DNA of 64,000 bases, from the NCBI RefSeq assembly GCF_017353515.1, contig NZ_JAFMPY010000021.1, forward strand, positions 51,311 through 115,310. The letters run 5' to 3'. The stretch is from Jiella sonneratiae (GTDB lineage Bacteria; Pseudomonadota; Alphaproteobacteria; Rhizobiales; Rhizobiaceae). Positions 44,583 through 62,941 of this stretch are shown here, piece by piece. The stretch's first letter is position 1. Every line of letters begins with the position of its first letter. The notes beneath the pieces were generated by a model that was not told the DNA's origin, searched no databases, and saw only the letters and a list, made by a program, of their open reading frames with translations. Made by a program: the position numbers and the translations under genes.

Positions 44583-45506
44583 TCAGCTCGCCGGAACGAA
44601 GGCGAGTTCGAAGGTGACGGGCGACGACGGGGTGATCGGAATGTCGCCGGCCGCCTCGCTCAGCTTCTTCAGGCCGTCCTCCATGCCGAAGTCGGCGGTC
44701 GAGACCGTCACCGGAGAGGCCGAGGCGACCGACACCAGATTGTCGCCGAGCTTGGAGATGACGACAGGGACGGTGAAGTCCTTGCTGATGCCCCTGACAG
44801 TCAGGGTCAGCGGCAGATCGTAGGTCATGCGCGCCTCGTCGAAGACCTGTCCGATCGCCTGCGGGTCGATCTTGGCGGTGATCGTCGCCTCCGGGAACTG
44901 GTCGATGTCGAACAGCAGGAAGCGCATCCTCACGTCGCGAATGTCGATGCCGGTGCTGACCGATTCCAGCTTGATCTTCACCTCCGCCTCGCCGCCCGGC
45001 GCGACGGAGCCGCTGAGATCGCCGAATTTCTGCGTCTCGACCACCGTCCCCTTCTTGATCGTGACGAAGTTCAGTCGCGAGCGGGCATTGTCGAGCGTCC
45101 AGCCCTTGGCGAAGAACGCCTCCTTCGCGCCCTGCTGCGGCTTTGCGGGCTCGTCCTGCGTCGCCACCGGCGTCGGCTCGCTCACCGCCGCCACGGTCGT
45201 GCCGGCCGGCGCCGCGTCGCCCGGAGCCCGGACCCAGCCGTCGACATTGTACTTGACGTTGGCCACCGTATAGAAACCGAGCCGGTACCACTTGTGGCCC
45301 GCCGGATCCGCGGCCTGCTCCATCACGCAGGCCTGCGCCGTCTCGGGAAGCACGGCGAAGGCGAGACCGGCGCCGCTGTCCGGCTTGTCGAAAAGCTCGG
45401 TGCGGTTGTCGATCGCTTCGTAGAATTCGCAGGCCCCGGCGGAACCCGCGACGGCCAGCATGGCTGCGAAGCAGCCCGCCGCCGTCATCACGTGTCTCGT
45501 AGCCAT
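44583..45506 (-). CDS. Secreted SH3-like and YceI domain protein
   Basis: A 307-residue secreted protein: signal peptide with a cleavage site near GSAGA-CEF, an N-terminal SH3-like part (LFDKPDSGAGLAFAVLPETAQACVM, KWYRLGFYTVANVKYNVDGWV), a Pro/Ala linker, and a C-terminal YceI-like domain (GWTLDNARSRLNFVTIKKGTVVETQKFGDLSGSVAP). YceI proteins are lipid-binding lipocalin-like proteins, often binding an isoprenoid quinone. AGAGGAACG precedes the ATG at 45506. Last gene of the cluster that begins at 62.9 kb. The pairing of SH3 and YceI is unusual. Confidence 0.8.
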   Translation of the reverse strand: MATRHVMTAAGCFAAMLAVAGSAGACEFYEAIDNRTELFDKPDSGAGLAFAVLPETAQACVMEQAADPAGHKWYRLGFYTVANVKYNVDGWVRAPGDAAPAGTTVAAVSEPTPVATQDEPAKPQQGAKEAFFAKGWTLDNARSRLNFVTIKKGTVVETQKFGDLSGSVAPGGEAEVKIKLESVSTGIDIRDVRMRFLLFDIDQFPEATITAKIDPQAIGQVFDEARMTYDLPLTLTVRGISKDFTVPVVISKLGDNLVSVASASPVTVSTADFGMEDGLKKLSEAAGDIPITPSSPVTFELAFVPAS

Positions 45507-45566
45507 TTGGCGTTCCTCTTCCACACGGTTGGCGGATGCTGTACCCGGCGGTGCGTCGACCTCGGT

Positions 45567-46265
45567 CTACTGGCAGCCGCTGGCGGCCCAGGTCGACAGA
45601 GCCTTCTTGAACGGCCCGCCATAGGGATGCTGGATGCGGATGATGCTGCCGGGATTGGCGGCGTAGGACTTGCCCTGGTCGCAGAGCCGATCCTTGTTCC
45701 ACTGGTGGCAAGTGGTGCACTGCCGCTTCCATTTGGCTTCCGGCAGGCCCTCGATCGGCGAGAACAGCGGCAGCGAGTTCGACAGCTGTTCGAGGGTGCG
45801 GCCGCGCACCGGGAAGGGGCCGAACGGCACCGGCTCGCTGAAGCTCAGCGTCACCGGCTGCTCGGTGTCCGGCGGCGGCGCGACCGTCTGGCCGCTGCCC
45901 GGATCGGGCACGGCGCCCGCCTGGTCGTCGCCGGCGACCGGCGTCGGAGAACCGGCGGGCTGGTCGACCTTGGCGAGGTAGCGCAGCGACGTCCAGCCTT
46001 CGGCCTTCTGCGTGTCGCTGCCGTCCGGCCGGCTCTTCGAGACGACGTAGCCCCAGTCCTGCCCGCCCGTCGTCTCGTTCTTCGAGACGCAGACGAGTTC
46101 GTTGTAGCGCAGGACGTCGAGGATGGTGCCGAAGACGTTCGGCTCCGCCCGCATGTTCAACAGCCGGGCCTCGACGCGGTAGGTGTCGCAGGACTGCGCG
46201 AGGGCCGGGCCCGAGAGCGCCAGCGCTCCGAAGATCGCCGCGACCAACAGGGACAATCGTGGCAT
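45567..46265 (-). CDS. Secreted SH3-like protein with C-terminal c-type heme site
   Basis: A 232-residue secreted protein: signal peptide (MPRLSLLVAAIFGALALSGP, cut after ALA), an SH3-like domain (LLNMRAEPNVFGTILDVLRYNELVCVS and DWGYVVSKS), a Pro-rich linker, and a C-terminal region with one CxxCH heme motif, CTTCH (183-187). Additional cysteines at 26, 59, 195 and 231 may form disulfides. I know of no family with this combination. AGAGGAGCG precedes the ATG. It lies between the YceI-domain gene and the S8 protease gene. Confidence 0.75.
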   Translation of the reverse strand: MPRLSLLVAAIFGALALSGPALAQSCDTYRVEARLLNMRAEPNVFGTILDVLRYNELVCVSKNETTGGQDWGYVVSKSRPDGSDTQKAEGWTSLRYLAKVDQPAGSPTPVAGDDQAGAVPDPGSGQTVAPPPDTEQPVTLSFSEPVPFGPFPVRGRTLEQLSNSLPLFSPIEGLPEAKWKRQCTTCHQWNKDRLCDQGKSYAANPGSIIRIQHPYGGPFKKALSTWAASGCQ

Positions 46266-46305
46266 GGGAAACTCGCTCCTCTTACGCGTGATGGGATTTC
46301 GCAAA

Positions 46306-46330
46306 CGTCGCCCCGTCGATGGGGATGACG
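46306..46330 (-). other. Intercistronic hairpin upstream of the heme-SH3 gene
   Basis: CGTC-G-CCCC and GGGG-AT-GACG pair around a six-base loop, in the 76-base gap between the S8 protease stop and the next start. One of several such hairpins in this cluster. Confidence 0.45.
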
Positions 46331-46341
46331 GGACAAGCGGG

Positions 46342-48156
46342 TTATCGTGAACTTCGCACGAGGCTCGACGCCGCCGCCGTGCCGCTTGGCGACGCGACCT
46401 GGATCAGTCCCGCGCCGCAGCCCTGCGGGCATTCGGCGCTGGAGCGGGGAAGCGCCGTCGCGGCGAGCGCGTCGCGCGCCTCCTTCGCGGTCATCGCCGG
46501 TCTGTCGGCGACGAGCGCCGCGACCGCCGCCGAGACGAGAGGCGTCGCCATGGAGGTGCCGTTCTTCAGGCCGTAGCCGCCGGATACCAGCGACAGGATG
46601 CCGTCGCCGAAGCCGTTGTGGTCGTCGTCGCGGGCGCTGTTGCCGCCGGGTGCCAAAACGTCGATCCGGGGACCGAAATTCGAATAGGGCGCAATGACGC
46701 CGCGGGCGTCCGAGGCGGCCACGGTGATGACGCCGTTGCAGCTCGCCGGCGAGGATTCGCGGGCGTCTTTCGCCTCGTTGCCGGCGGCGACGACGAGGAT
46801 CGCCCCGCTCGCCAGCACCTCGTCGACCGCGGCCTGGTAGGCCGCCGGGCAGGCGCCCGGACCGCCGAGCGACATGTTGATCACCTTCGCGGGGTTGGGG
46901 TTGTCCGGCACGCCCGCGACGGTCAGACCCGCAGTCCAGCGGATGGCGTCGATGATGTCGGCATCGAAGCCGCCGCAGCGGCCGAGGACCCGCACCGGCA
47001 GGATGCGGACCGGGACGCCCGGAAGGCCGATGCCGATCCGGTTGTCGCCCTCGACCGCGCCGGCGATTCCGGCGACGTGGGAGCCGTGCCAACTGCTCGT
47101 CGTCGCCGGCGTGCCGGGGCCGCAGAAGTCGGCGGCGCTGCCGTCGCCCGGGTCGGTCGGATCGCTGTCGCGACCGTCGCCGTCGTTGGCGACGAGATCA
47201 AGCGAGATGAAGTCGTAGCCGGGAAGAATGCGATTGACCGCAAGGTCGGGATGGCTGGCGATCAGGCCGGTATCGACGATGGCGACGACCGGTGCCGGGC
47301 CGGAGCCCTGGCGGTGGGTTTCGCGGAACGTCCGGAAGCCGGTGCCGCCGGGAACGCGGTTCGCCTGGTTGTCGGCGGAATGGTCGAAGAGCTGCCACTG
47401 CAGCGGCGCCAAGGGATCGTCCGAGAGCGCCGGGATGTCGGCGCTTGCGACCGGGGCTCCCGGTGCGCCCGGCGCGTCGACCTGGGGGGTCGGCCGCGCC
47501 GCGTCGCGGGAGGGTGCGCCGAGGCCGCGCGGCGGCTGCCCCGAGGCGCTGGGCGCGGTGTTTCCCGAAGGCGCATCGCCGCCGAGAATGGCGTTGATGG
47601 CGGCGGCCGGATCGGCCGTCTGGGTCGGAAAGCGCATCAGGTTCGGCTCGACCGCCGCCACCTGCGGCAGGTTGCGAAGCTCGCCGACGAGGCGGGCGGC
47701 TTCCGGCGCGAGCCCGGCGGCGAAATCGCTGCCGCGTTCGAGCCGGCGGGGGGCGGGAGCCTGGCCGTTGCTCTCGCGGCTGGCGCCGGGAAGGGTGAGG
47801 ACGAGCGTCCGGCCGCTGGCGTCGGCGGAGGCGATCGCGGCCACCACCGCGTCCATCGCGCCGCCGGCGGATTCGCGTTGCCGCCGGGTGGCCTCGACCC
47901 GCAGGCTCTCGCGGTTCTGGCCGGCCTTCAGGGTGACGAGCACCCGGGCGGGATCGACGAGGCGGGGCGGGTTCTGCGACAACGCGGCGGCGGCGCCGGG
48001 GACGATCTGGCGGCTGGCTTCGGCGAAGCCGTCCTGGGCGTTCGCGAGCGGCAGGAAGAGGCCGGAGGCGGTCATCGTGACGGCGAGGGCGGTGCCGGTC
48101 TGGGCGAGGGCGCGAAGCCGGCGGCGACGTGAGACAGTGCGGTCGATCCTGCGCAT
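46342..48156 (-). CDS. Secreted S8 (subtilisin-family) serine protease
   Basis: A 604-residue secreted protease. Signal peptide ends near LPLANA-QDG; an inhibitor I9-like propeptide spans about 70-175 (VLVTLKAGQ, AAVEPNLMRF); a Pro-rich linker contains the motif INAILGG (187-193); then the S8 domain with Asp295 (AIVDTGL), His357 (SWHGSHVAG), oxyanion Asn460 (VVAAGNE) and Ser535 (NGTSMATP). All catalytic residues are intact. It should act in the periplasm or outside. Part of the cluster together with trypsin-like and caspase-like proteins, which suggests cascade activation, although that is inference. Confidence 0.92.
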   Translation of the reverse strand: MRRIDRTVSRRRRLRALAQTGTALAVTMTASGLFLPLANAQDGFAEASRQIVPGAAAALSQNPPRLVDPARVLVTLKAGQNRESLRVEATRRQRESAGGAMDAVVAAIASADASGRTLVLTLPGASRESNGQAPAPRRLERGSDFAAGLAPEAARLVGELRNLPQVAAVEPNLMRFPTQTADPAAAINAILGGDAPSGNTAPSASGQPPRGLGAPSRDAARPTPQVDAPGAPGAPVASADIPALSDDPLAPLQWQLFDHSADNQANRVPGGTGFRTFRETHRQGSGPAPVVAIVDTGLIASHPDLAVNRILPGYDFISLDLVANDGDGRDSDPTDPGDGSAADFCGPGTPATTSSWHGSHVAGIAGAVEGDNRIGIGLPGVPVRILPVRVLGRCGGFDADIIDAIRWTAGLTVAGVPDNPNPAKVINMSLGGPGACPAAYQAAVDEVLASGAILVVAAGNEAKDARESSPASCNGVITVAASDARGVIAPYSNFGPRIDVLAPGGNSARDDDHNGFGDGILSLVSGGYGLKNGTSMATPLVSAAVAALVADRPAMTAKEARDALAATALPRSSAECPQGCGAGLIQVASPSGTAAASSLVRSSR

Positions 48157-48217
48157 CGCTTCGAACCTTCGGGAAAGGGGGCGGGCCCAGTCAAAGACGG
48201 GGCGGCTCGTCGGGGAT

Positions 48218-48242: not shown

Positions 48243-48251
48243 GGTCTTCTG

Positions 48252-49390: not shown

Positions 49391-50443
49391 TCACTGCCCG
49401 ATCGCCGAGTTCTGGTCCGCGGCGCCACTGGCCGGCGGACGCACGACCGGCGTCGCGTTGTCGGATCTCGGCGCCGGCTGCGTCGTCTGGTCAGCCTGAT
49501 CCGGCTGTTCCTCGTCGACGGGTTCCGGCTGGGTGGGGGCGACGTTCTTGGCGACGTCGCTGCAGGGCACCGGCGTCGGCCGGTTGCCGAAATCGTCGAG
49601 GCCGGTGTCGGACGGCCGGGGATCGGAAATCCCCTCGGTGCCTTCGCAGTCGGCATTCGAGCCGGCGACCGGGGCGGGGGCGTATTCGACCAGCCCGAGA
49701 TCTTCGGCGCTCGGCGCCGGTCCCTTGCGGTAGGTCGCGCGCGGCGCCTCGAAGCGCTCCGCCGTCGGCCCGGAATAGCCGTCCTCGATCAGCGTGATCT
49801 CGACGCGGCGGTTGATGCCGTCGCGCGGGCGCCGCGGATCGGCGAGCCGGCTCTCGCCGAAGCCGACCACGACCAGCCGGTCGGGATCGATGTCGAACTT
49901 CTGCACGAGATAGCGCTTGGCAGCGAGCGCCCGGCTTTCGGAGAGCCACTGGTTGTAGCCGTCTTTGCCGGCCGCGTCGGTATGGCCGGCGATCAGATAC
50001 TGGCTGCCGTCGAGCTCGCTCGCCTCCAGCGCGTAGCCGAGATCGTCGAGGACCTCCGCCGTTTCCGGCGTGATCTGCGAGCTGTCGAAGTCGTAATAGA
50101 CCGCGAGATCGATCGAGTGGTTGTAGTTGAGGATGATCTTCTTCATCTGATGCCGGCCGGGCAGCGGGATCTCCATCTCGATGATCCGGTTGGCATAGGC
50201 GGCGTCGGACTGCCGGCTCTGCCGATCCGGGCGCAGGGTCCGGATGATGCGCTCGGCGCGCTCGCTCTTCGGCTGCACCTTGGTCTGCTGCGCGAAGGCC
50301 GTGGCGCCGGCGCCGACGGCCGCCGGCGCCACGGAGACCAGCATCGCTGCCAGGAAGAGGCGCGCCACGCGGGCAGGCATCACGGCACCGGGCCGCCCCG
50401 ATCTCACGTTTCGTCCGCTCGTCGAACCCGTCATCCTTGCCAT
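49391..50443 (-). CDS. OmpA-domain envelope protein
   Basis: A 350-residue protein with an OmpA C-terminal (peptidoglycan-binding) domain at about residues 108-220: YYDFDSSQITPET, AGHTDAAGKDGYNQWLSESRA with peptidoglycan-ligating Asp155, and GINRRVEI with Arg212. A signal-peptide-like segment (residues 22-52, VMPARVARLFLAAMLVSVAP to AFAQ) follows an unusual basic N-terminal extension, so the true start could be the ATG at residue 22. The C-terminal tail is Pro/Gln/Asp-rich and disordered. No beta-barrel is predicted by eye. It probably anchors the system to the wall. A motif shared with other cluster genes is just upstream. Confidence 0.85.
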   Translation of the reverse strand: MARMTGSTSGRNVRSGRPGAVMPARVARLFLAAMLVSVAPAAVGAGATAFAQQTKVQPKSERAERIIRTLRPDRQSRQSDAAYANRIIEMEIPLPGRHQMKKIILNYNHSIDLAVYYDFDSSQITPETAEVLDDLGYALEASELDGSQYLIAGHTDAAGKDGYNQWLSESRALAAKRYLVQKFDIDPDRLVVVGFGESRLADPRRPRDGINRRVEITLIEDGYSGPTAERFEAPRATYRKGPAPSAEDLGLVEYAPAPVAGSNADCEGTEGISDPRPSDTGLDDFGNRPTPVPCSDVAKNVAPTQPEPVDEEQPDQADQTTQPAPRSDNATPVVRPPASGAADQNSAIGQ

Positions 50444-50502: not shown

Positions 50503-50517
50503 GGGCGTTGCGTGGGC

Positions 50518-51600
50518 TCACTGGCTGAGAAGATCGTTGTATGGCTGCGCCCGGTCGCTGCCGCCGATGATCGGGTTGGGGTCGCCGCCGGCCGCCGGCT
50601 GGCGGGCGCTCGTCGGCTGCTGCGCGGCCGTGGGCTGCGGCGAAACGGCGGGCTGGCGCGCTTCCGCGGCCGCGGCGGTCGTCGTGCCGGGGGCGGTCTG
50701 TGCCGGATTGGTGGCGACCGCGGCCGGGGCGCCGGCATCCGACGCGGGATGGAGGAAGGCGCTCTCCTTGATGATGTCGACCGTGTTCGAGCCTTCGTTG
50801 AAGCTGTTCGGGTCGTTCTCGTTGAGGCCGCCGGAATGGTGGATGCCGACGACCTGGCGGTCGGAATTGAAGATCAGCGCCCCCGAGGAGCCCGGCAGCG
50901 TGTCGCAGCGGTGGCGCAGCATCGGGCCGTCGTCCTGCTTGTCCGCCGCATAGCAGCGGAACTGCGTCATCATCTTCGGCTGACCCGCCGGATGATGGAT
51001 GACGATGAGGCGCTCGAGCGGCCGCGAGCGTTCCTTCGAAAAGGTCATCGGCTCGAGATCGCTCGGGGCCGGGCCGGCGAGGCGCGACAGCGAATAGTCG
51101 AGCTTGGGGTCCTTCTCGACCGGCGTCGTCTCGACCGGAATGCGCGTCGTCTTGCTGTCCGGGCCGTAGTAGTCGAGCAGGATCGAGGCCTCCAGCACCT
51201 TGCCGGAGAAGCCCGGAATGCAGTGGTAGTTGGTCAGGACGAGATTGCCCTCGACGATCGTGGCGGTGCAGGTCGAGAGGAACTGCTGGCCGTTTTCCTC
51301 GACCTTCAGGTCGAGCCGGCCGATCGACCGCGACAGGCGGCGCATCGGATCGTCCTCGCGCAAGAGGCCGACCGGCTCGAAGACGTTCTGCCGGTCGACG
51401 ACGTCGCGGGCGGCATCGCCGAGCGACTGGTGCAGCGGCAGGACGACCTTGCCGTAATCGTCCGCCGGCAGCTTGAAGTCGGCCGCGTCGGCGAGCGTCG
51501 GAAGGGCGGCGGCGCCGAGCATCGCGGCGGCGAGAAGCGCTGCGAGCCGGGGCTTTCCAGCCCTGCCGGTCCGGTTCGTCGCAGAAAGGGAACGCGCCAT
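50518..51600 (-). CDS. Secreted trypsin-like serine protease
   Basis: A 360-residue secreted protein. After a signal peptide (cut near ADA-ADF), a trypsin fold shows His126 (TNYHCIPG), Asp168 (KLDYSLS) and Ser239 (TLPGSSGAL), with VVGIHHSGG downstream, so the triad appears complete. A Gln/Pro/Ala-rich tail follows and ends with NPIIGGSDRAQPYNDLLSQ, where IIGG is like a trypsin activation-site sequence. GAGGAG precedes the ATG at 51600; the frame is open upstream. Lies 11 bases after the next upstream gene, so clearly co-transcribed. Confidence 0.88.
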   Translation of the reverse strand: MARSLSATNRTGRAGKPRLAALLAAAMLGAAALPTLADAADFKLPADDYGKVVLPLHQSLGDAARDVVDRQNVFEPVGLLREDDPMRRLSRSIGRLDLKVEENGQQFLSTCTATIVEGNLVLTNYHCIPGFSGKVLEASILLDYYGPDSKTTRIPVETTPVEKDPKLDYSLSRLAGPAPSDLEPMTFSKERSRPLERLIVIHHPAGQPKMMTQFRCYAADKQDDGPMLRHRCDTLPGSSGALIFNSDRQVVGIHHSGGLNENDPNSFNEGSNTVDIIKESAFLHPASDAGAPAAVATNPAQTAPGTTTAAAAEARQPAVSPQPTAAQQPTSARQPAAGGDPNPIIGGSDRAQPYNDLLSQ

Positions 51601-51611: not shown

Positions 51612-52349
51612 TCAGCTTCCGGGTTTGTCTTTCCGGACCAGTCGCAGCGCGAAGCTTTCGACGGTCGGATTCGGGGAATCGATCTGGTCGTCCCAGACCG
51701 CCTCGACGCCGATCGACAGGGCCTTCACGTCGAGCGGCCGGATCGGCGTCATGATCTCGCGTCCCGGCCCGAGGGCGATGCCGGAATTCAGCCGGCTGTC
51801 GGAGACGATCGCGACGGTCTTCAGCTCTTCGCCCACGCGCACCACGACGGTGCGCCGGTCGGATTCGTTGCGGATGCCGAGAAGGCACAGCTGGCCGAGG
51901 TCGAAGTCGAGCGTGCCGCCCACCGCCGCGGTGTGACGCACCCGGGTCGAGGGCCGGATGTCGAACAGAACGTCCTGGCACTTCTCGCCCGGCAGCGGAT
52001 GGACGGAGATCACCGACAGGTTTTCGACCGGATGGTCGCTGTTGACCCAGCGTTCCTCGCCGCCCTTCGCGACGGGAACCTCGGTCGCCGCCCGGCCCGT
52101 TTGCGGCGCCGTTCCCTGGTCGACGGTTCCGGGAAAGGGCTGCGGACGGATGCCCGGGGTCCCGGCGGTCTCGCCGGCGGCGGGAGTTTCGCCGCCGAGG
52201 ATCGCGTTGATGTCGGTCTGGGCCCGGACCGGGCCCGGCAGGGCCAGCGCAACGAAGCCGGCAAGGCCCGCAAACCCGGCAAGACGGCGCGCGCGAAGAA
52301 GGCGGAGCGGCGTCGGCCGGCGGCCTTTCGTGGGGTGCTGTGCTGTCAT
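51612..52349 (-). CDS. Secreted protein of unknown function with INAILGG motif
   Basis: A 245-residue secreted protein: basic N-terminus, hydrophobic segment (LAGFAGLAGFVALALPGPVRA), cleavage near RAQ, and immediately after it TDINAILGGETPAAG, a motif shared with the S8 protease. The C-terminal ~140 residues look like a beta-rich domain (VSVHPLPGEKCQDVLFDIRP, LDFDLGQLCLLGIRNESDRRTVVVRVG). No family recognised. GGGAGGACC precedes the ATG. It is 40 bases downstream of the Lon-like gene and 11 upstream of the trypsin-like gene. Confidence 0.75.
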   Translation of the reverse strand: MTAQHPTKGRRPTPLRLLRARRLAGFAGLAGFVALALPGPVRAQTDINAILGGETPAAGETAGTPGIRPQPFPGTVDQGTAPQTGRAATEVPVAKGGEERWVNSDHPVENLSVISVHPLPGEKCQDVLFDIRPSTRVRHTAAVGGTLDFDLGQLCLLGIRNESDRRTVVVRVGEELKTVAIVSDSRLNSGIALGPGREIMTPIRPLDVKALSIGVEAVWDDQIDSPNPTVESFALRLVRKDKPGS

Positions 52350-52389: not shown

Positions 52390-53667
52390 TCACTCGATCG
52401 CGATCGAAACGCGGCTTTCCCGGCCCGTCGGGTCGCGCAACACCGCCTCGGACGAGAGGGGGGAGGGTGTTCGCGCGAAATAGAGAAGTGTCGCCTCGCC
52501 GGCGGAGAGATCGCCCCCGGACAGGATCGACGCCCCGCCGGGGATCGCGAGGCCGGTCAGCCGCGTGTCGACGAAGAGCTTCTGTGCCTGTTCGGACATG
52601 TTGCGCAGCCTGAGGCCGCAGAGGCCCTCGCTCGCCTTGAGCTGGTAGCCGTCGCCCACCCGTTCGGCCGGCTCCACCACCAGATGCTCGCCGGTATAGA
52701 TCTTCTCCTGACATGCCGCTCGGTTCTCCGCATAGAGCCCGTCCACCGCGAGATTGTCGGCTGCGGCGACGAGAGCCCGTTCGGGCTCGTGGCCCGTCTC
52801 GGAAAGCGGAGTGGAACTGTCAGAGAGAAAAAATGCGATGCCGGCGACGGCGAGACCGGCGGCGGCGACACCGCCGAGGCCATAGGCCAAGCGTGCGCCA
52901 CGCTGCGGGCGGATCTGCGGCAGCGCCGGGCTGACGTCGGCCAGACGTGCCGGGGCGTTCGCCGCGGCGGTCGACGCCGCCGCTTGCGGGGACGCCGCGT
53001 CGGGCGCCTCGAGCTCGGTCTCGAGGCCGAACGCCGCCGTCACCTCGGCAAGCGAGGCCGCGACCGTCAGCTTGGCGCCGAATTCGGCGGCGAAGGCTTC
53101 CACCAGCCGGCGCTCCTCGTCGCTCTGCAGCGGCGGGACCACCATGGCGATCTGCGCGCCGCTCGCCTCGGCTTCGGCGAAGATCGGCTTCGACAGTTCG
53201 AGCTTCAGGGGAATGTGGTAGTCGGCGCTCTGTGGATTGAGGTCGGCATCGACCATCCCGGTCGCCCAGAGGAGCAGCGGCTCGCGGGCATCGAGCCGGC
53301 CGGCCGCCTCCATCAGATGGGCGAGAAGCACCGGCAGCTCCCAGGAGCGGCCGCAATCGAGCGCGTCCGACAGGCTGAGTTCCGTCGCCGGGAGATCCGG
53401 CACCACGAGACGCAGCGGACCGTTGACGAAGCGGTGGTAGTCCGCGGACAGGGCGAGCGGGCGGAAGTCGCCGACGACGGCCATGTAGCTCGCGGGCACG
53501 CGCGGCCGCCGCTTGACGGCACGCAGCTCGACCGGTTTCGCCGTGGTCGGGATGATGACACGCATACGCTTCTGCGCGTTGCCGTTCGCCGCCAAACGCG
53601 CCGCATCCATAACGAGATCGGAAGCCGGACTGTGCGTGAACTGACGCACGGTTTCAAGCGCTTGCAT
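52390..53667 (-). CDS. Membrane protein with Lon-protease-like N-terminal domain
   Basis: A 425-residue protein. Residues ~55-215 resemble the Lon proteolytic fold: strand pattern (AVVGDFRPLALS), CGRSWELPVLLAHLMEAAGR with Ser108 at the place of the catalytic Ser, LLLWATGMVDADL, then LELSKPIFAEAEASGAQIAMVVPP with Lys155 or Lys160 as candidate base. One transmembrane helix (262-282) follows a basic segment, so the N-terminus should be cytoplasmic and the C-terminal ~140 residues, with Cys319 and Cys350, periplasmic. The similarity is by eye; it may be an inactive or unrelated domain. It would connect cytoplasm and envelope in this cluster. Confidence 0.65.
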   Translation of the reverse strand: MQALETVRQFTHSPASDLVMDAARLAANGNAQKRMRVIIPTTAKPVELRAVKRRPRVPASYMAVVGDFRPLALSADYHRFVNGPLRLVVPDLPATELSLSDALDCGRSWELPVLLAHLMEAAGRLDAREPLLLWATGMVDADLNPQSADYHIPLKLELSKPIFAEAEASGAQIAMVVPPLQSDEERRLVEAFAAEFGAKLTVAASLAEVTAAFGLETELEAPDAASPQAAASTAAANAPARLADVSPALPQIRPQRGARLAYGLGGVAAAGLAVAGIAFFLSDSSTPLSETGHEPERALVAAADNLAVDGLYAENRAACQEKIYTGEHLVVEPAERVGDGYQLKASEGLCGLRLRNMSEQAQKLFVDTRLTGLAIPGGASILSGGDLSAGEATLLYFARTPSPLSSEAVLRDPTGRESRVSIAIE

Positions 53668-53748: not shown

Positions 53749-54285
53749 TCAGGACAGGTAGATCTCCGTCCTGGGATCCCTCAAAAGCTCGATCGTCCTC
53801 CGGTCACCGTCCGACGCAGGGTCGAGCCCCATCTGGAGCACACCCCCGATAGGATTACCCAACGGAATATCCAGTGACAATCTCCTTTCTTCGTGGATCA
53901 AGGTAAGGTGACGCGGCAGTTCCCCATCGGAATTCGGGGAGATGACCACGAAGAAGGCGTCGCCCTCGTCCAGAAGCTCGAGCCGGAAGCCGCCGATCGT
54001 CCGCGCGACGTCGGCTTCCGTGCTGGCGGCGCGGGCGACCGTCGAGAAGGCGAGGCTGCGGCTCTGGAGATATTGGCGCCGCAGGCGCAACAGGCCGATC
54101 GGCACCGGCGCGCCAACATCGGCGCCGCCCCCCGCCAGAAACGCCGCGACGTCGATGCGGCCCGCAGCGCCGGCCCGTTCCTCGCCGTGACCGGCGAGTT
54201 CGCGCGTCGCGCGCCGGTCGACGAAGCGGCGTTCGGCTTCGGCGAGAAGCTCCGGCGAAGTGATCTGATCGATACGGATTGTCAC
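53749..54285 (-). CDS. Hypothetical cytoplasmic protein of the protease cluster
   Basis: A 178-residue protein with GTG start (AAAGGGATAA upstream). No signal or membrane segment. The sequence begins TIRIDQITSPELLAEAERRF and has a beta-rich C-terminal half (FRLELLDEGDAFFVVISPN, LTLIHEERRLSLDIPLG). I do not recognise it. Located between the Lon-like gene and the 493-residue hypothetical gene, 80-100 bases from each, in the same direction. Confidence 0.65.
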   Translation of the reverse strand: MTIRIDQITSPELLAEAERRFVDRRATRELAGHGEERAGAAGRIDVAAFLAGGGADVGAPVPIGLLRLRRQYLQSRSLAFSTVARAASTEADVARTIGGFRLELLDEGDAFFVVISPNSDGELPRHLTLIHEERRLSLDIPLGNPIGGVLQMGLDPASDGDRRTIELLRDPRTEIYLS

Positions 54286-55948: not shown

Positions 55949-58900
55949 TCAGCCCTTCTCGTCGAAATCGCGGACCAGCTGGCGGGCGTGGCCGGCATAG
56001 CGCCCGGTCGGCCGCTTTCTCAGATATTCGACCAGCGCGTCGCGGGTGCGTTCGACGAGGACCTTCTGCCAGTCGGCCTCGTCCGCGAGCATCTCGATGC
56101 GGTCGCGCGCTTCGCCGAGATGCTTGCCCGTCGGATACTGCAGCACGTAGCGGCGATAGGCCTCGACCGTGTGGATGTTGGAGACCTCTTCCCAGGTGGC
56201 TTCCTGGGCGAGCAGGCTGGTGAGCCGCTCCTTGATTTCAGGCACGTAGACGCTCTTCGGATATTGCGCGAGGAAGTTGTCGTAGTCCGTCGAGTCGGTC
56301 GACGACATGGTGGTCTTGTAGGCCTTGAGATCCTCGCTCTCGACGGCGGCCACGCGCTGCTGCGGCGCGGCCTCGGCGGCAGTCGGCGCCGCGGCGTCCT
56401 TTGTCGCGAAATCCGGCCGGCTCTCGATCTCGGCGACCAGCTTGATCGCCTCGCTCATTTTCTGGCAGGCGCCGCAGACCGGCGGCAGGTCGTTGCAGCT
56501 GGCGAGGTAGCGCAGCAGGCCGTCATAGGAGCGGTCGGCCGGAAACTGCGTCTCGACCGTGTCGTGGGCACGCTGGCAGATGCCGGCGACCTTCTTCTCG
56601 CCCTCGCGCTTCTTCGTGCACTCCTCGCAGTTCTGGACGTAGTACCAGTAGGCGTCGAGCGTTCCGTCCTTTTCCGCCGCCGCCCATAGGGCCTCGTCCT
56701 TGAGGGCGGCCGGATCGGGACCGTTGAGCTTGGCGAGGCGGTCTTCCAGCGGCTTCTTGTCGCCGCAGCATTCGCAGCTCTGGAGATAGGCGCCGATCTC
56801 CAGCGCGCTGCCGCTCTTCAAGAGTTCGGCGGAATGACGCTCCTCGGCGCGGCAGATCGCCTCGCGCCGCCGCTCGGTCTGCACGAGGTCGCGCAGCTCG
56901 TCCTTCAGCGGGCAGTAGACGCAGCCCCGCAGATAGGGTTGCACGCCCCCGAGATCCTTCGATTCCAGGATTTCCCGGGCGGTGAGGAGCTCGTAGTGCT
57001 CGCGCTCGGTCGCCTCCTCGCGGCCGACGCCGTCGTCGGGCAGCGTGAACAGCACCTCGGTCGGCGCCGCGCCGTCGATTTCCGGCGTCTGGCGGAACTC
57101 CGGGCGCAGCTGCTTGATCCGCCGCGACATGCGGTTCTGGAGAAAGTCGTCGAGCTCGGCGACCGTGACCTTGCCGTCGCCGTTGCCGCCGAAGCGCTTC
57201 TCGTCGGCCTCGCCGTAGAGCGCGGAGACCAGGGCGTCGGTGAAGACGCCGTGGCGATATTCGGAATCCCACACCGCGACCTGGTCGGAATGGGCGGCGG
57301 CGATCAGCGTCACGCCCTTGTCGGCCTTGATCACCGGCGGCTCGCCGGAATTCGGCGCGCTGACGCCGGTCACGAAGTCGCCGGCGTCGGAGCGGCCCGA
57401 AAAACAGCTCTCCAGCATCATGACGACCCGGCCCTTCGGAAAGGTCTTCTCGCGAAGCTGCGCGAGCCGCTTGATCATCGTGTTGAGGTCGTAGCCGGTC
57501 AGGTCGAGCCGGTCGGGCCGGCTGTCGATGCCGAGGAGATAGGGCGTCCTGTCGTTGCCGCCGCCCATGAAGGAGCGCGAGCCGTGGCCGACGAAATAGA
57601 CGTAGACCTCGGCGTTGGGCGAGGAGATCTGGTTGGCGATGGTGCCCGGCTTGTCGGCATCGCCGAAGAGATACTCGAACTCCGCCTTGGTCAGGTCCTC
57701 GTAGCGGGTGATGTTCGCCGGGGCGAGACCGAACTGCTCGACGAACAGCTTCTCGACGGCGCTGGCGTCGTTCGGAGCAAAGCGCACGTCCTCGGCATAG
57801 CGGTAGGCGTGATTGGCGATGATGAAGAGGTGGCGGGGCGGCTGGCCCTGGTCGTCCTCGGCCGCCGCGCTGTCGTCGCCGCCGGTCGCGGGGGTCGCCG
57901 AGGCCGCCGCGTCGACGGGCTGCGGCGCCGGCTTCTCGTCCGCCGGGACCGCCGAGGCGGCGTCCTCCGGCTGCTGCGGGGCGACCTTCGTCTCGGTGCC
58001 GGAAGCTGCCGGCGAGGGAGCGGCACCGGCCGGGGTGCCGGAAGCGTTCGGGGCGGCCGACGCGTTCGGGGCGGCGGAGGCGGTCTTGACGGCCGGCACC
58101 TTGGCGGCCTCGACCACCGCCTGCGGCCGGCATCCGTCGAGCATCCCCTCGTCGGCGACGGCGAGCGCCTGGCGCCGCGTCAGCACCGTCTTTCCGGTGC
58201 GGATGGTGAGGGTCAGGTCGACGATCCGGCCGTTCTTCTCCGGCAGGCGGTAGTCGACGTCCATGACGACGCCTTCCGCCTTGTCGTCGGCCTGGCCGGT
58301 GATCAGCGGCGGCAGCGGCTTGCCGTCAAGCCAGGCGGCGAGATCGCCCTGCTGCATCTGGAAATAGGCGGTGGTGAAGGTGTCGGCCGCCCGTTCGGAG
58401 AGATTGCAGCTGCCGTCGACATGCATGTCGGGCTCGAAGCTGAGGCTCGTGGCGGAAGCGAGCTTCGGCGCCACCGTGCCGAGCACCGACTGGTATGCGC
58501 CGGAGAGCTCGACGAGGTCGACGCTCGATCCGCGGAAGTCGCCGATCGCGGTGAAGGACGGCAGGTGCAGGTTGATGGCGACGGTGCGGTTGCAGCTGTA
58601 GGAGCCGGAGCCCGACCGCGCGAAGATCGCGACGTTGAGCCGGGCGACGTCGACGGTCGGGCGCGAGGCCTGGACGGCGACGGCGAAGGTCGAGGCGTAG
58701 AGCCGGTTGACCATCTGCTCGAGCTGGCGGCTGCTTTCGTCGCTGGCGCCGAGAATCGGCAGGAGGGCGCGGGCGTTCTCGGCCGTGTTGACGTTGATCG
58801 CGAGGCCCGAGCCGCGGATCGCCTCCTGCAGCGCGCCGTTGATCCGCGACCTGAGGCTCTCCGAAACGTGCGGATCGCCGGCCGGCAGGCCGAGATAGGT

Positions 58901-59116
58901 CAGGTCGTAGGGGCGCGGCGCGTCGGGGGCGATGCAGTTCGAGGTGAGGATGCCGGCGATCGCCGCGGTGACCTGGGTGCGCACGTTGTCGACGAGGGGA
59001 GCGCCGGGGCGCAGCACCTCGTCCGCCCTCGCGGCCGGCGCCGCCGCGGCAACAAAAACCAGCGCGAATACGACGGCTTGACGTAGGAGACCGCCCAGGT
59101 TCGAAGCGCCGTTCAT
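55949..59116 (-). CDS. Secreted caspase-family protein with Cys-pair repeats
   Basis: A 1055-residue protein with a signal peptide (cut after AARA). Residues ~35-330 form an N-terminal region, perhaps CsgG/LpoB-like; ~340-425 an Ala/Pro linker; 428-690 a caspase (C14-like) domain with His511 (FVGHGSRS) and Cys571 (MLESCFSG). A degenerate EF-hand-like loop (GGNGDGKVTVAEL) sits at 643-655. Residues 725-890 contain four repeats of a YL-x-x-C-x-x-C type with Cys pairs at 732/735, 781/784, 830/833 and 881/884; 930-1055 has three related helical repeats without Cys. Its export is unusual for a bacterial caspase. GAGGA is upstream of the ATG. Confidence 0.9.
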   Translation of the reverse strand: MNGASNLGGLLRQAVVFALVFVAAAAPAARADEVLRPGAPLVDNVRTQVTAAIAGILTSNCIAPDAPRPYDLTYLGLPAGDPHVSESLRSRINGALQEAIRGSGLAINVNTAENARALLPILGASDESSRQLEQMVNRLYASTFAVAVQASRPTVDVARLNVAIFARSGSGSYSCNRTVAINLHLPSFTAIGDFRGSSVDLVELSGAYQSVLGTVAPKLASATSLSFEPDMHVDGSCNLSERAADTFTTAYFQMQQGDLAAWLDGKPLPPLITGQADDKAEGVVMDVDYRLPEKNGRIVDLTLTIRTGKTVLTRRQALAVADEGMLDGCRPQAVVEAAKVPAVKTASAAPNASAAPNASGTPAGAAPSPAASGTETKVAPQQPEDAASAVPADEKPAPQPVDAAASATPATGGDDSAAAEDDQGQPPRHLFIIANHAYRYAEDVRFAPNDASAVEKLFVEQFGLAPANITRYEDLTKAEFEYLFGDADKPGTIANQISSPNAEVYVYFVGHGSRSFMGGGNDRTPYLLGIDSRPDRLDLTGYDLNTMIKRLAQLREKTFPKGRVVMMLESCFSGRSDAGDFVTGVSAPNSGEPPVIKADKGVTLIAAAHSDQVAVWDSEYRHGVFTDALVSALYGEADEKRFGGNGDGKVTVAELDDFLQNRMSRRIKQLRPEFRQTPEIDGAAPTEVLFTLPDDGVGREEATEREHYELLTAREILESKDLGGVQPYLRGCVYCPLKDELRDLVQTERRREAICRAEERHSAELLKSGSALEIGAYLQSCECCGDKKPLEDRLAKLNGPDPAALKDEALWAAAEKDGTLDAYWYYVQNCEECTKKREGEKKVAGICQRAHDTVETQFPADRSYDGLLRYLASCNDLPPVCGACQKMSEAIKLVAEIESRPDFATKDAAAPTAAEAAPQQRVAAVESEDLKAYKTTMSSTDSTDYDNFLAQYPKSVYVPEIKERLTSLLAQEATWEEVSNIHTVEAYRRYVLQYPTGKHLGEARDRIEMLADEADWQKVLVERTRDALVEYLRKRPTGRYAGHARQLVRDFDEKG

Positions 59117-59198
59117 CGTCGTTGCGTCCTCAATATTCCTCGAGAGTTCTAGCACGAAGTCGTGCGCTTGAAACCCATCAGGAAAGTGGATCGATCAG

Positions 59199-59215: not shown

Positions 59216-59345
59216 AGGAAAAGCATTCGCGGCAGAGATTCCGCAGCGTTATCCGTGAATTGACGGGGATTCTCGAAGGTCGGCACGCTGTTCGGTTGCA
59301 TCGTCCGGCGGCTCGCTTCTGCGAAGCCCTGCCGGCAGGCTCGAA

Positions 59346-59372
59346 GGGCGGGCGGCTTTCGCCGGCCCGCCC
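59346..59372 (-). terminator. Stem-loop after the Gly/Tyr-rich OmpA gene
   Basis: On the minus strand GGGCGGG...CGGC-GAAA-GCCG-CCCGCCC, a GNRA-loop hairpin starting nine bases beyond the stop. One bulged base. No strong U-tract, but stable; probably ends or separates the transcript before the caspase-like gene. Confidence 0.6.
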
Positions 59373-59380
59373 CGTCCGTT

Positions 59381-60466
59381 TCAGTGACCGATCTTGCAGA
59401 CCTCGATCACCCGGCCGCCGCCGAAGTCGTCGATGTCCTGGAAGCCGGCGGCCACGAGACGCCCTTCGACCGAGTAGTCGGCATGCGGGTAGGCCGGAAC
59501 GCGGCAGGTCGGCTCGGCCGTGCGGTAGCTCGCGGTCTCGGCGGCAACCGGCTCGCCGGCATCGGCGACCGGGCGGTCGCCCGTCTTGTCGAGATCGAGG
59601 CCGAGCAGCGCCACCACCACCTGGCGGTTTTCAGGCGCCAGCGGATCGTCGATGCCGGGCGCCGGCGTCTCGCCGAAGGGTGCTTCGACGAAGCGGTCGG
59701 CCGGAATGTCGAACTTCTCCGACAGGTAGGCCTTCACGGCGGCGACCCGCTTCATCGAGATCGCCTCGTTCTGCTCCTGCGTGCCGGTCGCGTCGGTATA
59801 GGCGGTGAGGAGAACGCGGACGTCGGTCTCGGTATAGGCGAGGAGGATGTTGCCGATGCGGTCGAGGTCGGCCGCAGCCGTCTCGGAAAGGCCGGACATG
59901 CCGGCAGCGAAGAGGATCGGCCGGCCGACGTCGCTGCGCGGCTCCGGCTTGTCCGTCGCGGCGTGCATGTCGTGGGCTTCGCCCTGCATGTCGTGGGTCT
60001 CGACCCGGACGTCCTGCGTCTCGACCGTCGGCTCGGCATAGTCGGTCGCCGGCTCGAACGGCGCATAGGTCCGGTAGCGGTAGACCACCACGCCGCGATG
60101 GCGGCGGGGAGCGTGGAAGTCGTCGAGGTCGCCGTAGTAGCGGTCGCCGTAGCCGTGGTCGGCATAGCCGTAGCCGCGGCCGTCGTGCCCGTAGCCGGCA
60201 TGGCCGTAGCCGTAGCCGTCATGGCCGTAATCGCGCGAAACGTAGCCGCCGCCGTAGCCGCCGCCGTAACGCGGGGAATAGCCGCCATAGCCGCCGCCAT
60301 ATCCGCCGCCATAGCTGGAAGAAGAGTTGATGACGTGGTTGATCTCGGCGGCGCTGGCGCGCGGGCCGAAATAGTCGCCGGCGCTGGCGGCCTGCGGCAG
60401 GAAGGCCGCACCGGCGGCGAGGAAGCTGGTGGTCAGAAGGGCGGTGGTCGAAAGTCTCGAGCGCAT
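59381..60466 (-). CDS. OmpA-domain protein with Gly/Tyr-rich segment
   Basis: A 361-residue secreted protein. Signal peptide (MRSRLSTTALLTTSFLAAGAAFLPQAASA), then INHVINSSSSYGGGYGG opening a Gly/Tyr/His-rich low-complexity segment (residues ~50-110, repeats of GGGYGG and GYGHDG), and a C-terminal OmpA-like domain (LFAAGMSGLSETAAADLDRIG, LTAYTDATGTQEQN, ENRQVVVAL). The peptidoglycan-binding Asp is retained in YTDATG, and the ENRQ replaces the usual NRRV. The Gly/Tyr repeats could drive self-assembly or bind surfaces. A cluster motif lies 45 bases upstream. Confidence 0.85.
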   Translation of the reverse strand: MRSRLSTTALLTTSFLAAGAAFLPQAASAGDYFGPRASAAEINHVINSSSSYGGGYGGGYGGYSPRYGGGYGGGYVSRDYGHDGYGYGHAGYGHDGRGYGYADHGYGDRYYGDLDDFHAPRRHRGVVVYRYRTYAPFEPATDYAEPTVETQDVRVETHDMQGEAHDMHAATDKPEPRSDVGRPILFAAGMSGLSETAAADLDRIGNILLAYTETDVRVLLTAYTDATGTQEQNEAISMKRVAAVKAYLSEKFDIPADRFVEAPFGETPAPGIDDPLAPENRQVVVALLGLDLDKTGDRPVADAGEPVAAETASYRTAEPTCRVPAYPHADYSVEGRLVAAGFQDIDDFGGGRVIEVCKIGH

Positions 60467-60510
60467 CGTTTGTCTCCTCAGGGTCGAAAGCTCGCTGCGT
60501 TTCGAAAAGC

Positions 60511-60527
60511 CGAGTGGAAGACCCAGA
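60511..60527 (-). promoter_or_regulatory. Shared cluster motif upstream of the Gly/Tyr-rich OmpA gene
   Basis: On the transcribed strand TCTGGGTCTTCCACTCG, matching TCTGG-N3-TTCCACT in all fixed positions and differing only in the last two bases. About 47 bases before the ATG. Confidence 0.45.
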
Positions 60528-60605
60528 GAAAATCGCGCCGGGGAACCATGCGCGAATGCCGGCGCCGCCCCTACGGGGAGACGCCGGCAATGCCGGATCC
60601 GGGCC

Positions 60606-60670
60606 GGGGGGGCCGCGGGGGGGCGCCCCCCCCCCCCCCCCCCGGGGGGGGGGGCCCCCCCCCCCCCCCG
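60606..60670. repeat. Long C/G homopolymer tract, possibly artefactual
   Basis: Runs of 7 G, 18 C, 11 G and 15 C follow one another in the gap between the di-heme oxidoreductase stop and the OmpA gene. Such runs could be a sequencing or assembly artefact at a strong GC hairpin (for example a terminator just beyond the stop at 60677), or a phase-variable tract. I cannot decide from one sequence. Confidence 0.7.
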
Positions 60671-60676
60671 CCTGTC

Positions 60677-62941
60677 TCAGCGGTTCTGGTCGACGCCCGC
60701 AAAGCCCTCGTCGCGCGGCAGCCGCAGCGTGTGCAGGAAGGCGAGCAGCGCGTCCTGATCCTCGGCGGGCAGCGCCTGGAAGGCCGTCACCGCACCGTTC
60801 GCCTCGCTGACGAAGCCGGAGCCGTTGTCCGCGCAGGCGGCGTCGGAGTGCTTCAGGATCGCGTCGCGCAGGCTGAGCGCCCGGCCGTCGTGCAGCCAGG
60901 GCCCGGTGTCGGCGAGGCCCCAGAGCGCGCGGGTCACGTACTGATCGCGCGGCACGAAGACGCCCGCACGGTCGGTCTGCTGGTGGATCACGTCGGCAAG
61001 GCAGCGGCCCATCTTGTGACGCTTCAGGTCGGAGAACAGCGGCACGTCGACGGCGCCGGTGACGTCGGAGGCAAGCCGCGGCTCGGAGGCGAGGAACACC
61101 TTCTCCTCGAAGGGCGTGTTCATGTTGAGGTTGAAGGCGAAGGCGGCGCCCTTCGGGAAGCCGCGGCCGGCGGATTCGTTCGCCTGGGCGGCCGGGGCGA
61201 CGGCGCGTTCCTTCGCCGCGGTCTGGCCGCCCTCGAGGAACTCCTGCTCGACCGGCAGCGGCAGGCCGCGCGGTGCGGCCTGGCCGAGGCCGACGCCGTT
61301 CTCGGTGACGGTCAGCGCCGGCTCGGGCCGGTTGGATTCCCGGGCGACGACGCGCAGCGACTCCCGGTCCGGACGCGGATCGTGGATCCTCACGACCGGG
61401 TTGAGGACGGTCTTCGAGGACTGGTGGCAGGTGACGCAGGCGGTCGTCGGATCGCCGCCGGCCCGGCCTTCGAAGATCGCGCGCCCGCGGGCGACCGCGG
61501 CGATCTCGGTGCTGTCGGCCGGGGCGATCTGCGAGGGCGGGCGGGCGCCGAGCGCGAAGGCGGTGAGGGCCGTGACCTCGCCGATCGACACCTCGTCGAC
61601 GATGCCGTCGCCGTCGGGATCCGGATTGGCGCCGGCGGCGATCAGTTCCTCCGGCACCATGCCGAAGTGGAAGTTCAGCGCGTCGCGGACGAAGTTGCGC
61701 ATGTTGGAGGCGATGCCCTTCCACTGGAACGGCCGCACCACGAAGTCCTCGCTGACGCCCTCGATGCGGTCGCAGCGTTCGACGAGGCTCTGTTCCTGGC
61801 CGCAGGGCGCCAGCAACTCCCCGGGCGCCGGCGCGCCGGCATTGACCCGGACCTGGTAGCGGCCGAAGTCGGTGCCCTTGGAGTTGAGCCGGATCTCGTA
61901 CCACTGGCCGCGGTTCTGGGTGGCCTGGTCGACGGCCGCCCGGCGCTGCGCCAGGAGATCGAAGCTCATCTCCTCGGCGAGCTTCTGGGTGTAGCCGGCG
62001 CCGAAGACGTGGGGCGGATTGCGCAGGAACACCGCATACATGTTGCCGGGATCGGCGACGCCGCGCTCCTGGAAGGCTTCGACCACCCATTTCGGCGCCG
62101 GAAGCTCGAGCAGCGGATTGATGATCGCCGCCGAGGTCACGGCGCCGGCGCCGGAGACGCGGTCCGGCCGGACCGTCCGCCCGGGCGTCGAACCGCCGAC
62201 CGGCGTCTCGAAGCCCGACACGTTGTGGCATTCGAGGCAGGCCTGGGCGTCGAGGCCGTGGACGCGCATCCAGGGGATCTGCGCGAAGGCGGCCATCGGC
62301 CCGATGCCGCTCGCGGTCATCTGGTGGCGCTTCTTCTCGCGCGGGCCGGTCGGACCCTCGCCGTAGCCCTCGACGGCGGTGAAGGACTGGGTGAACAGGT
62401 GGCGGCCGATCTCCATCATCGAGCGGAAGCCGACATTGCCGGCGGAGATCTCCTCCTGCGACAGGCGGATGCCCTGTCCGAGGGAGGGCTCGTCGCCGGT
62501 CGTCAGATGCACCGGCACGGTGCTGCCGCCGGGCATCGGGGTCGGACCGCCGCTGGAATAGTTCGGCGTGGCGTTGGCCGGCGCCGACTGGTCGTCACCG
62601 GCGGCCGGTGTTACCGGCTGCGGCGTCGTCCCCGCGGTGTCGTTCTGCTGCGGCTGCGGATCGGCGGTAGACGCCGGCGGCTGGTCGCCGGTCTGCGTGG
62701 TGTCGCCGGCGGGCGGCTGCTGGTCCGCAGGAGGCTGCTCCGACACCGGCGGCTGCTGGTCGGCCGGCGGCTGGCCCGCATCCGGCACGGCCGGCGGGTT
62801 GGCGACCTGACCCCGGCCGGAACCGCCGCCGAAGATGGTGTCGTTGATCGCGTCGCTGAGCTGGGCCCGGAGCGGGCTCGACGCGCCGACGACGAGGCAA
62901 AGCGCCGTGCCGGCGAGAATGGCGTTGCGGAGCTTGGGCAT
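60677..62941 (-). CDS. Di-heme c-type oxidoreductase (DHOR family), secreted
   Basis: A 754-residue secreted protein. Signal peptide (MPKLRNAILAGTALCLVVG, cut near RAQ), the INAILGG-like DAINDTIFGGGSGRG, a Pro/Gln-rich segment with QPPADQQPP repeats, and a DHOR domain from about 155 on. Two CxxCH heme sites are visible: CLECH (235-239) and CVTCH (502-506), plus NPDPDGDGIVDE as a calcium-type loop and DTGPWLHDGRALSLRDAI near the end, typical for the family. Members are linked to peroxidase-type or thiosulfate/other periplasmic redox chemistry. First gene of the cluster. GAGAGG precedes the ATG. Confidence 0.88.
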   Translation of the reverse strand: MPKLRNAILAGTALCLVVGASSPLRAQLSDAINDTIFGGGSGRGQVANPPAVPDAGQPPADQQPPVSEQPPADQQPPAGDTTQTGDQPPASTADPQPQQNDTAGTTPQPVTPAAGDDQSAPANATPNYSSGGPTPMPGGSTVPVHLTTGDEPSLGQGIRLSQEEISAGNVGFRSMMEIGRHLFTQSFTAVEGYGEGPTGPREKKRHQMTASGIGPMAAFAQIPWMRVHGLDAQACLECHNVSGFETPVGGSTPGRTVRPDRVSGAGAVTSAAIINPLLELPAPKWVVEAFQERGVADPGNMYAVFLRNPPHVFGAGYTQKLAEEMSFDLLAQRRAAVDQATQNRGQWYEIRLNSKGTDFGRYQVRVNAGAPAPGELLAPCGQEQSLVERCDRIEGVSEDFVVRPFQWKGIASNMRNFVRDALNFHFGMVPEELIAAGANPDPDGDGIVDEVSIGEVTALTAFALGARPPSQIAPADSTEIAAVARGRAIFEGRAGGDPTTACVTCHQSSKTVLNPVVRIHDPRPDRESLRVVARESNRPEPALTVTENGVGLGQAAPRGLPLPVEQEFLEGGQTAAKERAVAPAAQANESAGRGFPKGAAFAFNLNMNTPFEEKVFLASEPRLASDVTGAVDVPLFSDLKRHKMGRCLADVIHQQTDRAGVFVPRDQYVTRALWGLADTGPWLHDGRALSLRDAILKHSDAACADNGSGFVSEANGAVTAFQALPAEDQDALLAFLHTLRLPRDEGFAGVDQNR

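Follow-up and report, generated by a model that had tools for sequence, protein, structure and literature searches.

Thirteen minus-strand genes (g13 to g01) in the genome of Jiella sonneratiae form a conserved, apparently undescribed block. The block lies in a stretch of 64,000 nucleotides, hereafter the window (contig NZ_JAFMPY010000021.1, positions 51,311 to 115,310), and its widely conserved part is a transmembrane core of three genes, g10-g09-g08, which an earlier sequence-only reading of this DNA had missed. We propose, with confidence about evenly balanced, that the block around this core is an envelope-spanning protease-oxidase system in which g08, a membrane-anchored predicted Lon-like Ser-Lys protease, links proteolysis to the condition of the cell wall. 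Several secreted block proteins carry a short string of about (I/V)NxILGG, here termed the tag. All results come from sequence or prediction.

The block itself was confirmed, and its thirteen genes span 62941 to 44583 with intergenic gaps of 11-264 bases once starts were re-chosen, the short-gapped arrangement that the sequence-only reading had described. The contig measures 115 kb, the draft genome 5.15 Mb, and the window reaches the contig end. Pfam supports YceI (g01), Peptidase_S8 (g03), OmpA (g05, g12), Trypsin_2 (g06), Peptidase_C14 (g11) and DHOR (g13), in agreement with the sequence-only domain calls, and gives no family at an E-value of 0.1 for g04, g07, g08, g09 and g10; the SH3 call for g02 fell below the cut-off. 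Inspection by eye gives ten of the thirteen a Sec-type N-terminus, and of these ten a simple hydropathy scan picked up seven (it missed g03, g12 and g13); the scan placed one helix in g08 and none in g09 or g10. The genes, all on the minus strand, are as follows.

60677..62941, minus strand: g13, secreted di-haem oxidoreductase (DHOR/MauG-like); PF06537, two CxxCH sites, tag INDTIFGG near the mature N-terminus
59381..60466, minus strand: g12, secreted OmpA-domain protein; PF00691, N-terminal EINHVI
55949..59116, minus strand: g11, secreted caspase whose N-terminal domain is conserved; PF00656
54384..55865, minus strand: g10, core protein, predicted all-helical from a structure model, no signal peptide, no Pfam match
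53749..54285, minus strand: g09, small core protein without a signal peptide, adjoining g08 in other lineages too, by alignment
52390..53667, minus strand: g08, core protein with a Lon-like Ser-Lys protease domain predicted at 27-221, a single membrane helix and a beta-sandwich domain in the periplasm, by fold, invariant pair and helix
51612..52349, minus strand: g07, secreted, with a domain like that of the g08 C-terminus, by hhalign; tag DINAILGG at the mature N-terminus
50518..51600, minus strand: g06, secreted trypsin-like protease; PF13365, NPIIGG and C-terminal YNDLLSQ
49391..50443, minus strand: g05, secreted OmpA-domain protein; PF00691
48252..49286, minus strand: g04, secreted, no Pfam match, best conserved among the secreted parts
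46342..48156, minus strand: g03, secreted subtilisin-type (S8) protease; PF00082, Ser535, tag INAILGG between the propeptide region and the catalytic domain
45567..46265, minus strand: g02, secreted, weak SH3 match (PF08239, below cut-off) and one CxxCH (CTTCH at 183)
44583..45506, minus strand: g01, secreted YceI-domain protein and final gene of the block; PF04264

Conservation and inheritance of the block

Genome-wide searches for g10 and g04 were made across 61 genomes, the own genome and 60 relatives. Ten of the 61 have g10, and precisely these ten also have g04, which lies some five kilobases from it; named g10 relatives from Jiella share 82-83% identity, and that of J. endophytica 86%. 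A scan with the g10 alignment gave 12 loci, across which the thirteen proteins were then compared by tblastn. All thirteen genes stand in the same order in L015, L017, L018, L020, L022 and the Aurantimonas locus L021; L016 is without g13 and L019 without g01-g03, and both gaps coincide with contig ends. A Rhodobacteraceae metagenome-assembled genome (MAG; L023) holds 12 of the 13 in order at 32-67% identity, the S8 gene being missing. The run g10-g09-g08-g07 is retained, with a varying set of other genes, in L024 from a Hyphomicrobiaceae MAG and in the Acuticoccus loci L025 and L026; g09 of the Acuticoccus loci was missed by tblastn and found by profiles.

In two block-carrying genomes (G001, G005), the block has phosphomannomutase and guanylyltransferase-like genes on one side and an RBBP9-like hydrolase on the other, these neighbours being named by eye. 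A block-less Jiella (G007) has a near-empty site, with the hydrolase and the guanylyltransferase-like open reading frame 144 bases apart as called, and in block-less G002 the hydrolase has different neighbours. In Aurantimonas G035 the block and the hydrolase are on different contigs (8 and 25, respectively), which puts its block at another place.

The sequence-only reading had staked its idea of a single system on co-occurrence in related genomes, and co-occurrence was found: the g10 and g04 genome sets are identical, gene order is kept and presence or absence is block-wise, so the block is more than a set of chance neighbours. That several independent operons came to lie side by side by accident is extremely improbable; the mixed types among the thirteen genes and an empty promoter/terminator scan would suit such an origin, but the order kept at 32-67% identity in L023, the identical genome sets, the near-empty site and the shared tag speak against it, and we rejected it on the co-occurrence, the near-empty site and the tag. 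That the thirteen genes are one conserved, heritable system is well supported.

As a side observation, the Fulvimarina MAG G008 has g04 a second time at full length (85%), at 1580-2611 of a different contig (contig 5), adjoining a tagged S8 gene (L079); it may be the other end of a cut block or a second copy.

The core trio and its predicted Lon-like protease

The g08 protein has 425 amino acids and comprises, beyond the Lon-like domain, a linker, one helix and a beta-sandwich. The Lon proteolytic fold was seen in its predicted model only by a second fold comparison (VIA). In 20 of 20 aligned sequences two residues that could form a Ser-Lys catalytic pair are invariant.

53344..53346, minus strand: codon of g08 Ser108 (GRSWE), putative nucleophile, invariant in 20/20
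53203..53205, minus strand: codon of g08 Lys155, putative general base, invariant in 20/20

The Lon-like label given in the sequence-only reading thus found no backing in Pfam, which has no match to g08, and was recovered by fold comparison. Pfam likewise detected in g08 no fused AAA+ ATPase domain of the kind found in LonA and LonB. A PDB profile search with g08 brought up an MreB chain alone (E 1.1), and the 50 Foldseek rows listed included no Lon and mostly matched the C-terminal half; a sequence proof of Lon kinship was dropped after hhalign, PDB profile and Foldseek failed to give one. The fold of g08 is accordingly described as predicted Lon-type, with no claim of sequence homology. By hhalign (probability 92, E 5.2e-7), the secreted g07 is related to g08's periplasmic domain.

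Searched with an alignment of g08, 16 of 397 genomes of the order gave a match; with a wider alignment, 19 of 385 genomes in the class did so, as did 14 of 398 in the phylum, the own genome being counted each time. Among the best 7,995 candidates of a protein search, g08 relatives occur in many Methylobacterium and Methylorubrum species, including M. extorquens, and in Hartmannibacter diazotrophicus. The three-gene core is older than the block and recurs across Pseudomonadota; the block is an elaboration on it.

To describe the surroundings of the core, 34 of 35 loci chosen by g08 were used; L144 was left out as a copy of L025, G242, G587, G617, G728 and G863 are not included, and G054 is the same as L024. 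The core partners accompany g08 in nearly every locus (g09 in 34, g10 in 31), followed by g04 (18), an SLT transglycosylase (17, label confirmed by Pfam), OmpA (16), a MotA-like protein (14), caspase (6), g06-type trypsin (6) and g07 (4). The locus profiles were trained on part of these loci; on held-out loci, profiles made before class-level members were added found g10 in 12/16 and g09 in 13/16 class-level loci and, at E 0.01, g10 in 6/6 and g09 in 5/6 phylum-level loci. L135, L136 and L140 (the last with split frames) share the order caspase, N-domain protein, g10, g09, g08, trypsin, OmpA, g04, and L137, which starts at a contig end, has the same order from the N-domain protein on. A second form has the transglycosylase on one side of the core and four more conserved genes on the other, the last of which is the MotA-like one. 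The MotA-like label comes from a weak ZorA match (E 5.6e-4) and from inspection by eye; Pfam and NCBIfam gave nothing usable for this protein.

Two side observations concern g08 itself. The 660-amino-acid protein P0156 is g08-like and carries PF00211, a guanylate cyclase domain, which suggests that fusions of the Lon-like module with a nucleotide cyclase can occur. In J. pelagia, g08 is seemingly split over two frames (L015:12391-13603).

Secreted components

The caspase g11 scores 41.8 bits against PF00656 (cut-off 21.4) and combines a p20 domain with the His-Cys pair, as orthocaspases do; His511 and Cys571 are invariant in 7 of 7 aligned sequences. Cys571, like Ser535 of the S8 protease, had been correctly named from sequence alone, as had the single CxxCH of g02. 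The N-terminal domain of g11 is a separate gene in other loci. A guess that g04 is a relative of this domain was dropped, hhalign having found nothing, and no usable match came from profile searches of the PDB with g04, g07 or g11. Identity of g04 is 84-87% in the Jiella-group loci and 56% in L024. Trypsin-type His/Asp/Ser motifs are present in g06. At 22.2 bits, g13 narrowly passes the PF06537 cut-off of 22; together with the CxxCH sites at 235 and 502, this family match places it with the DHOR/MauG-type di-haem enzymes, and its score against the MauG equivalog model is far below that model's cut-off. As the sequence-only reading held, most parts of the block are predicted to be exported, and its OmpA domains to be of the peptidoglycan-binding type.

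Elsewhere in J. sonneratiae, three further caspase genes pass the Pfam cut-off, on contigs 71, 17 and 26 (L001-L003), their neighbourhoods having been read by eye. A second caspase-Lon neighbourhood on contig 17 was discarded: by eye, its Lon_C match has the look of RadA, and a distance of about 10 kb separates it from the caspase.

A short tag shared by secreted proteins

One short string is common to otherwise unrelated secreted proteins of the block: DINAILGG in g07, INDTIFGG in g13, EINHVI in g12, INAILGG in g03, and NPIIGG plus YNDLLSQ towards the C-terminus of g06. A C-terminus of the N-x-(I/L/M)-(I/L) type was present in 10 of the 11 g06 relatives listed.

62825..62848, minus strand: tag INDTIFGG in g13, residues 32-39, in 8/9 orthologues
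52192..52208, minus strand: tag NAILGG in g07, DNA pattern match; strict protein pattern in 9/13
50561..50577, minus strand: tag NPIIGG in g06, DNA pattern match
47579..47595, minus strand: tag NAILGG in g03, DNA pattern match; strict protein pattern in 3/9

A DNA pattern for NxI(I/L/F/M)GG has five matches genome-wide, three of them inside the block, and its reversed control has none; another match lies in the tyrosinase described below, and the fifth looks like a cytochrome oxidase helix. The strict protein pattern occurs three times in 5,708 block residues and once in 73,695 control residues, and 0 of 2,000 shuffles reach three. A looser form was scored within the first 140 residues across loci and compared with shuffles, in counts that are not independent, the rows being related and L025 and L144 the same locus. 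It was found in 8/9 DHOR proteins (shuffle mean 0.7, maximum 4), in 14/18 g07 proteins (1.9, 6) and in 19/42 OmpA proteins (4.6, 10), one of these 19 lying inside the OmpA domain. No enrichment was seen in this region in caspase (2/19), trypsin (0/18), S8 (1/10), haem peroxidase (0/2), g08 (2/45), g09 (3/39) or g10 (4/38); in the S8 proteases and peroxidases the tag sits further into the protein than the first 140 residues.

Tagged proteins also occur outside the block. A secreted tyrosinase (PF00264) on contig 6 of J. sonneratiae (L099:8182-9864, minus strand) has VNDILGGGGG between its tyrosinase domain and its C-terminal domain. Close orthologues (78% or more) are present in 6 of the 61 genomes, all among the ten block carriers, with the tag exact in five and changed to VNSMIDGG in the Aurantimonas one; three more genomes, one with the block and two without, have weak matches alone (29-35%). 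Beside the core in L024 and L133 stands an animal-type haem peroxidase (PF03098), with INNAIFGG in L133 and the weaker INNILGIGG in L024. NLNDLIGG is found at the mature N-terminus of a protein of L141 that is trypsin-like by eye, and NLNDLL in one of L143.

Other matches were set aside. Those in M16-type peptidases (MNHILGG) and Mn-catalase-like proteins (VNAILGG), both named by eye, were taken as chance occurrences inside folded domains, and MNHILGG occurs in genomes with and without the block. Two Hyphomicrobiaceae tag matches outside the block led to nothing. We discounted a role as a cleavage site, because cutting at the very start of the mature protein or at its extreme C-terminal end would remove almost nothing.

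An oxidase arm is supported by this distribution: unrelated oxidases (di-haem, animal-type haem peroxidase and the remote tyrosinase) accompany the block or the core and bear either the tag or a weakened version. All three kinds of oxidase (di-haem, animal-type and copper) are able to act on tyrosine or phenols, an activity that would be compatible with cross-linking or with quinone chemistry. Of the redox or lipid-quinone arm suggested in the sequence-only reading, the redox part has these oxidases behind it, and a lipid-quinone role would be suggested by the YceI domain alone.

The same oxidases bring in a maturation or housekeeping explanation, in which the proteases and haem oxidases would process and oxidatively modify envelope proteins (by cross-linking or cofactor building) and the core would control membrane protein turnover only, without any alarm. 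It would account for a DHOR/MauG-like oxidase, a one-haem SH3 protein and a YceI protein within one block and for the animal-type haem peroxidase as a replacement in L024 and L133, and no known defence model fits the block beyond generic protease matches. Such a patchy spread (10 of 61 relatives) would be unusual for housekeeping, though, and the several protease types together with a transmembrane Lon-like protein rather suggest signalling; we regard this explanation as unlikely, if a serious contender.

Flanking genes

Past g13, Pfam identifies a DDE_3 transposase gene, after which the contig ends. In the relatives read, a sugar-phosphate gene pair stands on the g13 side where J. sonneratiae has this gene. 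At the other flank lies a gene that by eye has a peptidoglycan-binding and M15-peptidase look; a similar gene is also near the same flank in block-less Jiella G007, and an M15_4 peptidase adjoins the block in L024.

63377-63934 of the window, minus strand: DDE_3 transposase gene, adjoining g13 at the contig end
41069-42184 of the window, plus strand: gene with a peptidoglycan-binding and M15-peptidase look, beside the block flank

Proposed mechanism

For the trigger, cascade and purpose of the proposed protease-oxidase system, we infer the following. The OmpA proteins would be bound to peptidoglycan, and the tagged enzymes (S8, trypsin-like, peroxidase) would be held at the wall by a common tag-binding partner. 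A disturbance of the wall could then reach the cytoplasmic Lon-like domain of g08 by way of g07 and g08's own periplasmic domain; the Lon-like domain would cut g09 or g10 and so raise the response; the caspase, the trypsin-like and S8 proteases and the oxidases would execute it in the periplasm.

Several results weigh against this proposal. Comparison of g08 with the genome's own Lon by hhalign returned nothing, and no sequence-level Lon match was found. Caspase and g06-type trypsin are present in few of the wider-family loci (6/34 each), and the protease arm therefore falls outside the core. The DNA pattern of the tag is not specific by itself, because it has 1 to 17 matches in each of the 61 genomes against 0 to 14 for the control. 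The strict pattern has no match in g01, g02, g04, g05, g06, g11 or g12, and the looser one is no richer in g04 (14/30) than in shuffles (mean 8.0, maximum 16). The promoter/terminator pattern scan of the block was uninformative, and the genomes are nested by kinship, so that the counts overstate independence. Overall, the sequence-only interpretation is partly supported, a cascade in which the proteases activate one another being a hypothetical part of it.

A more speculative extension, which we consider distinctly improbable, would make the block a bacterial counterpart of animal humoral cascades such as complement and prophenoloxidase: wall-held tagged proteases and phenol oxidases would fire on a breach of the wall and harden or destroy the envelope, and the Lon-like g08 would report the breach to the cytoplasm. 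The core with lytic transglycosylase and MotA-like protein elsewhere would then be a general wall-injury relay of Pseudomonadota.

The trio has no Pfam family, is predicted to place a Lon-type domain and a further domain on opposite sides of the inner membrane, and recurs across Pseudomonadota, among others in Methylobacterium and Methylorubrum species that are amenable to manipulation; if it does relay wall damage by proteolysis, this would be a signalling route for which we found no description. Assembly of periplasmic enzymes by the tag would be new, and following the tag also turned up the tyrosinase as one more candidate client. For secreted bacterial caspases, which have no settled role, the block offers concrete candidate partners.

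Relation to known systems

A system of this composition was new to the sequence-only reading, and in the open-access literature, outside of which most subscription journals lie, we likewise found no description of the block, the core or the tag. The closest comparisons are with conflict systems and bring in a third explanation, defence against phages or competitors that acts at the envelope by killing the cell or by inactivating the invader. Conflict systems make use of caspases and trypsin-like proteases (PMC7159879), and the distribution of the block is patchy and block-wise. One distant g08 weakly matches the PADLOC model for CRISPR CARF-Lon (E 6.5e-4), as the MotA-like partner of the second core form does ZorA (E 5.6e-4). 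Yet the CARF-Lon model matched none of the 15 sequences in the main g08 alignment, a PADLOC scan of nine window proteins gave generic protease matches only, the block occupies one site in the Jiella genomes compared, and reading of the flanks, which were not scanned for defence genes, brought no defence island to notice. We hold defence to be quite unlikely.

The iSTAND/VMAP ternary conflict systems (Kaur et al. 2020, PMC7159879) share caspase, trypsin and OmpA-type effectors with the block; Pfam finds no MoxR/STAND ATPase and no vWA domain in its thirteen proteins. Among operons of prokaryotic caspase homologues, the survey of Asplund-Samuelsson et al. 2012 (PMC3501461) counts an OmpA domain in 14 of 217 and proteolysis domains in 23, and neither the core nor the tag nor the composition seen here is described in its section 13. 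Zorya (PMC11890865) has Pal/OmpA-type peptidoglycan-binding domains thought to report wall injury. The block resembles ZorA/ZorB in its peptidoglycan-binding OmpA-type domains, and the second core form in its MotA/ExbB-like protein; the block contains no MotA-like gene, and the nine window proteins scanned gave no ZorA or ZorB match.

Compared with the domains of Lon, RadA and ComM, g08 has no ATPase domain, is membrane-anchored, carries GxSW instead of GPSAG and shows no sequence-level match. By Pfam it also differs from CalpL in having neither a SAVED nor a CARF domain; the half of g08 outside the Lon-like domain is predicted to lie in the periplasm, neither partner can be recognised as a sigma or anti-sigma factor, and CRISPR genes were not seen. 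The likenesses to CalpL and Zorya are analogies, as defining features fail in both. In the CalpL/CalpT/CalpS system (CRISPR-associated Lon protease; PMC11417357), CalpL is a Lon-type protease that cuts a partner to raise the response; it joins a Lon-type domain to a sensor domain and is encoded with two partners, as is g08 with its predicted Lon-type domain and putative sensor domain.

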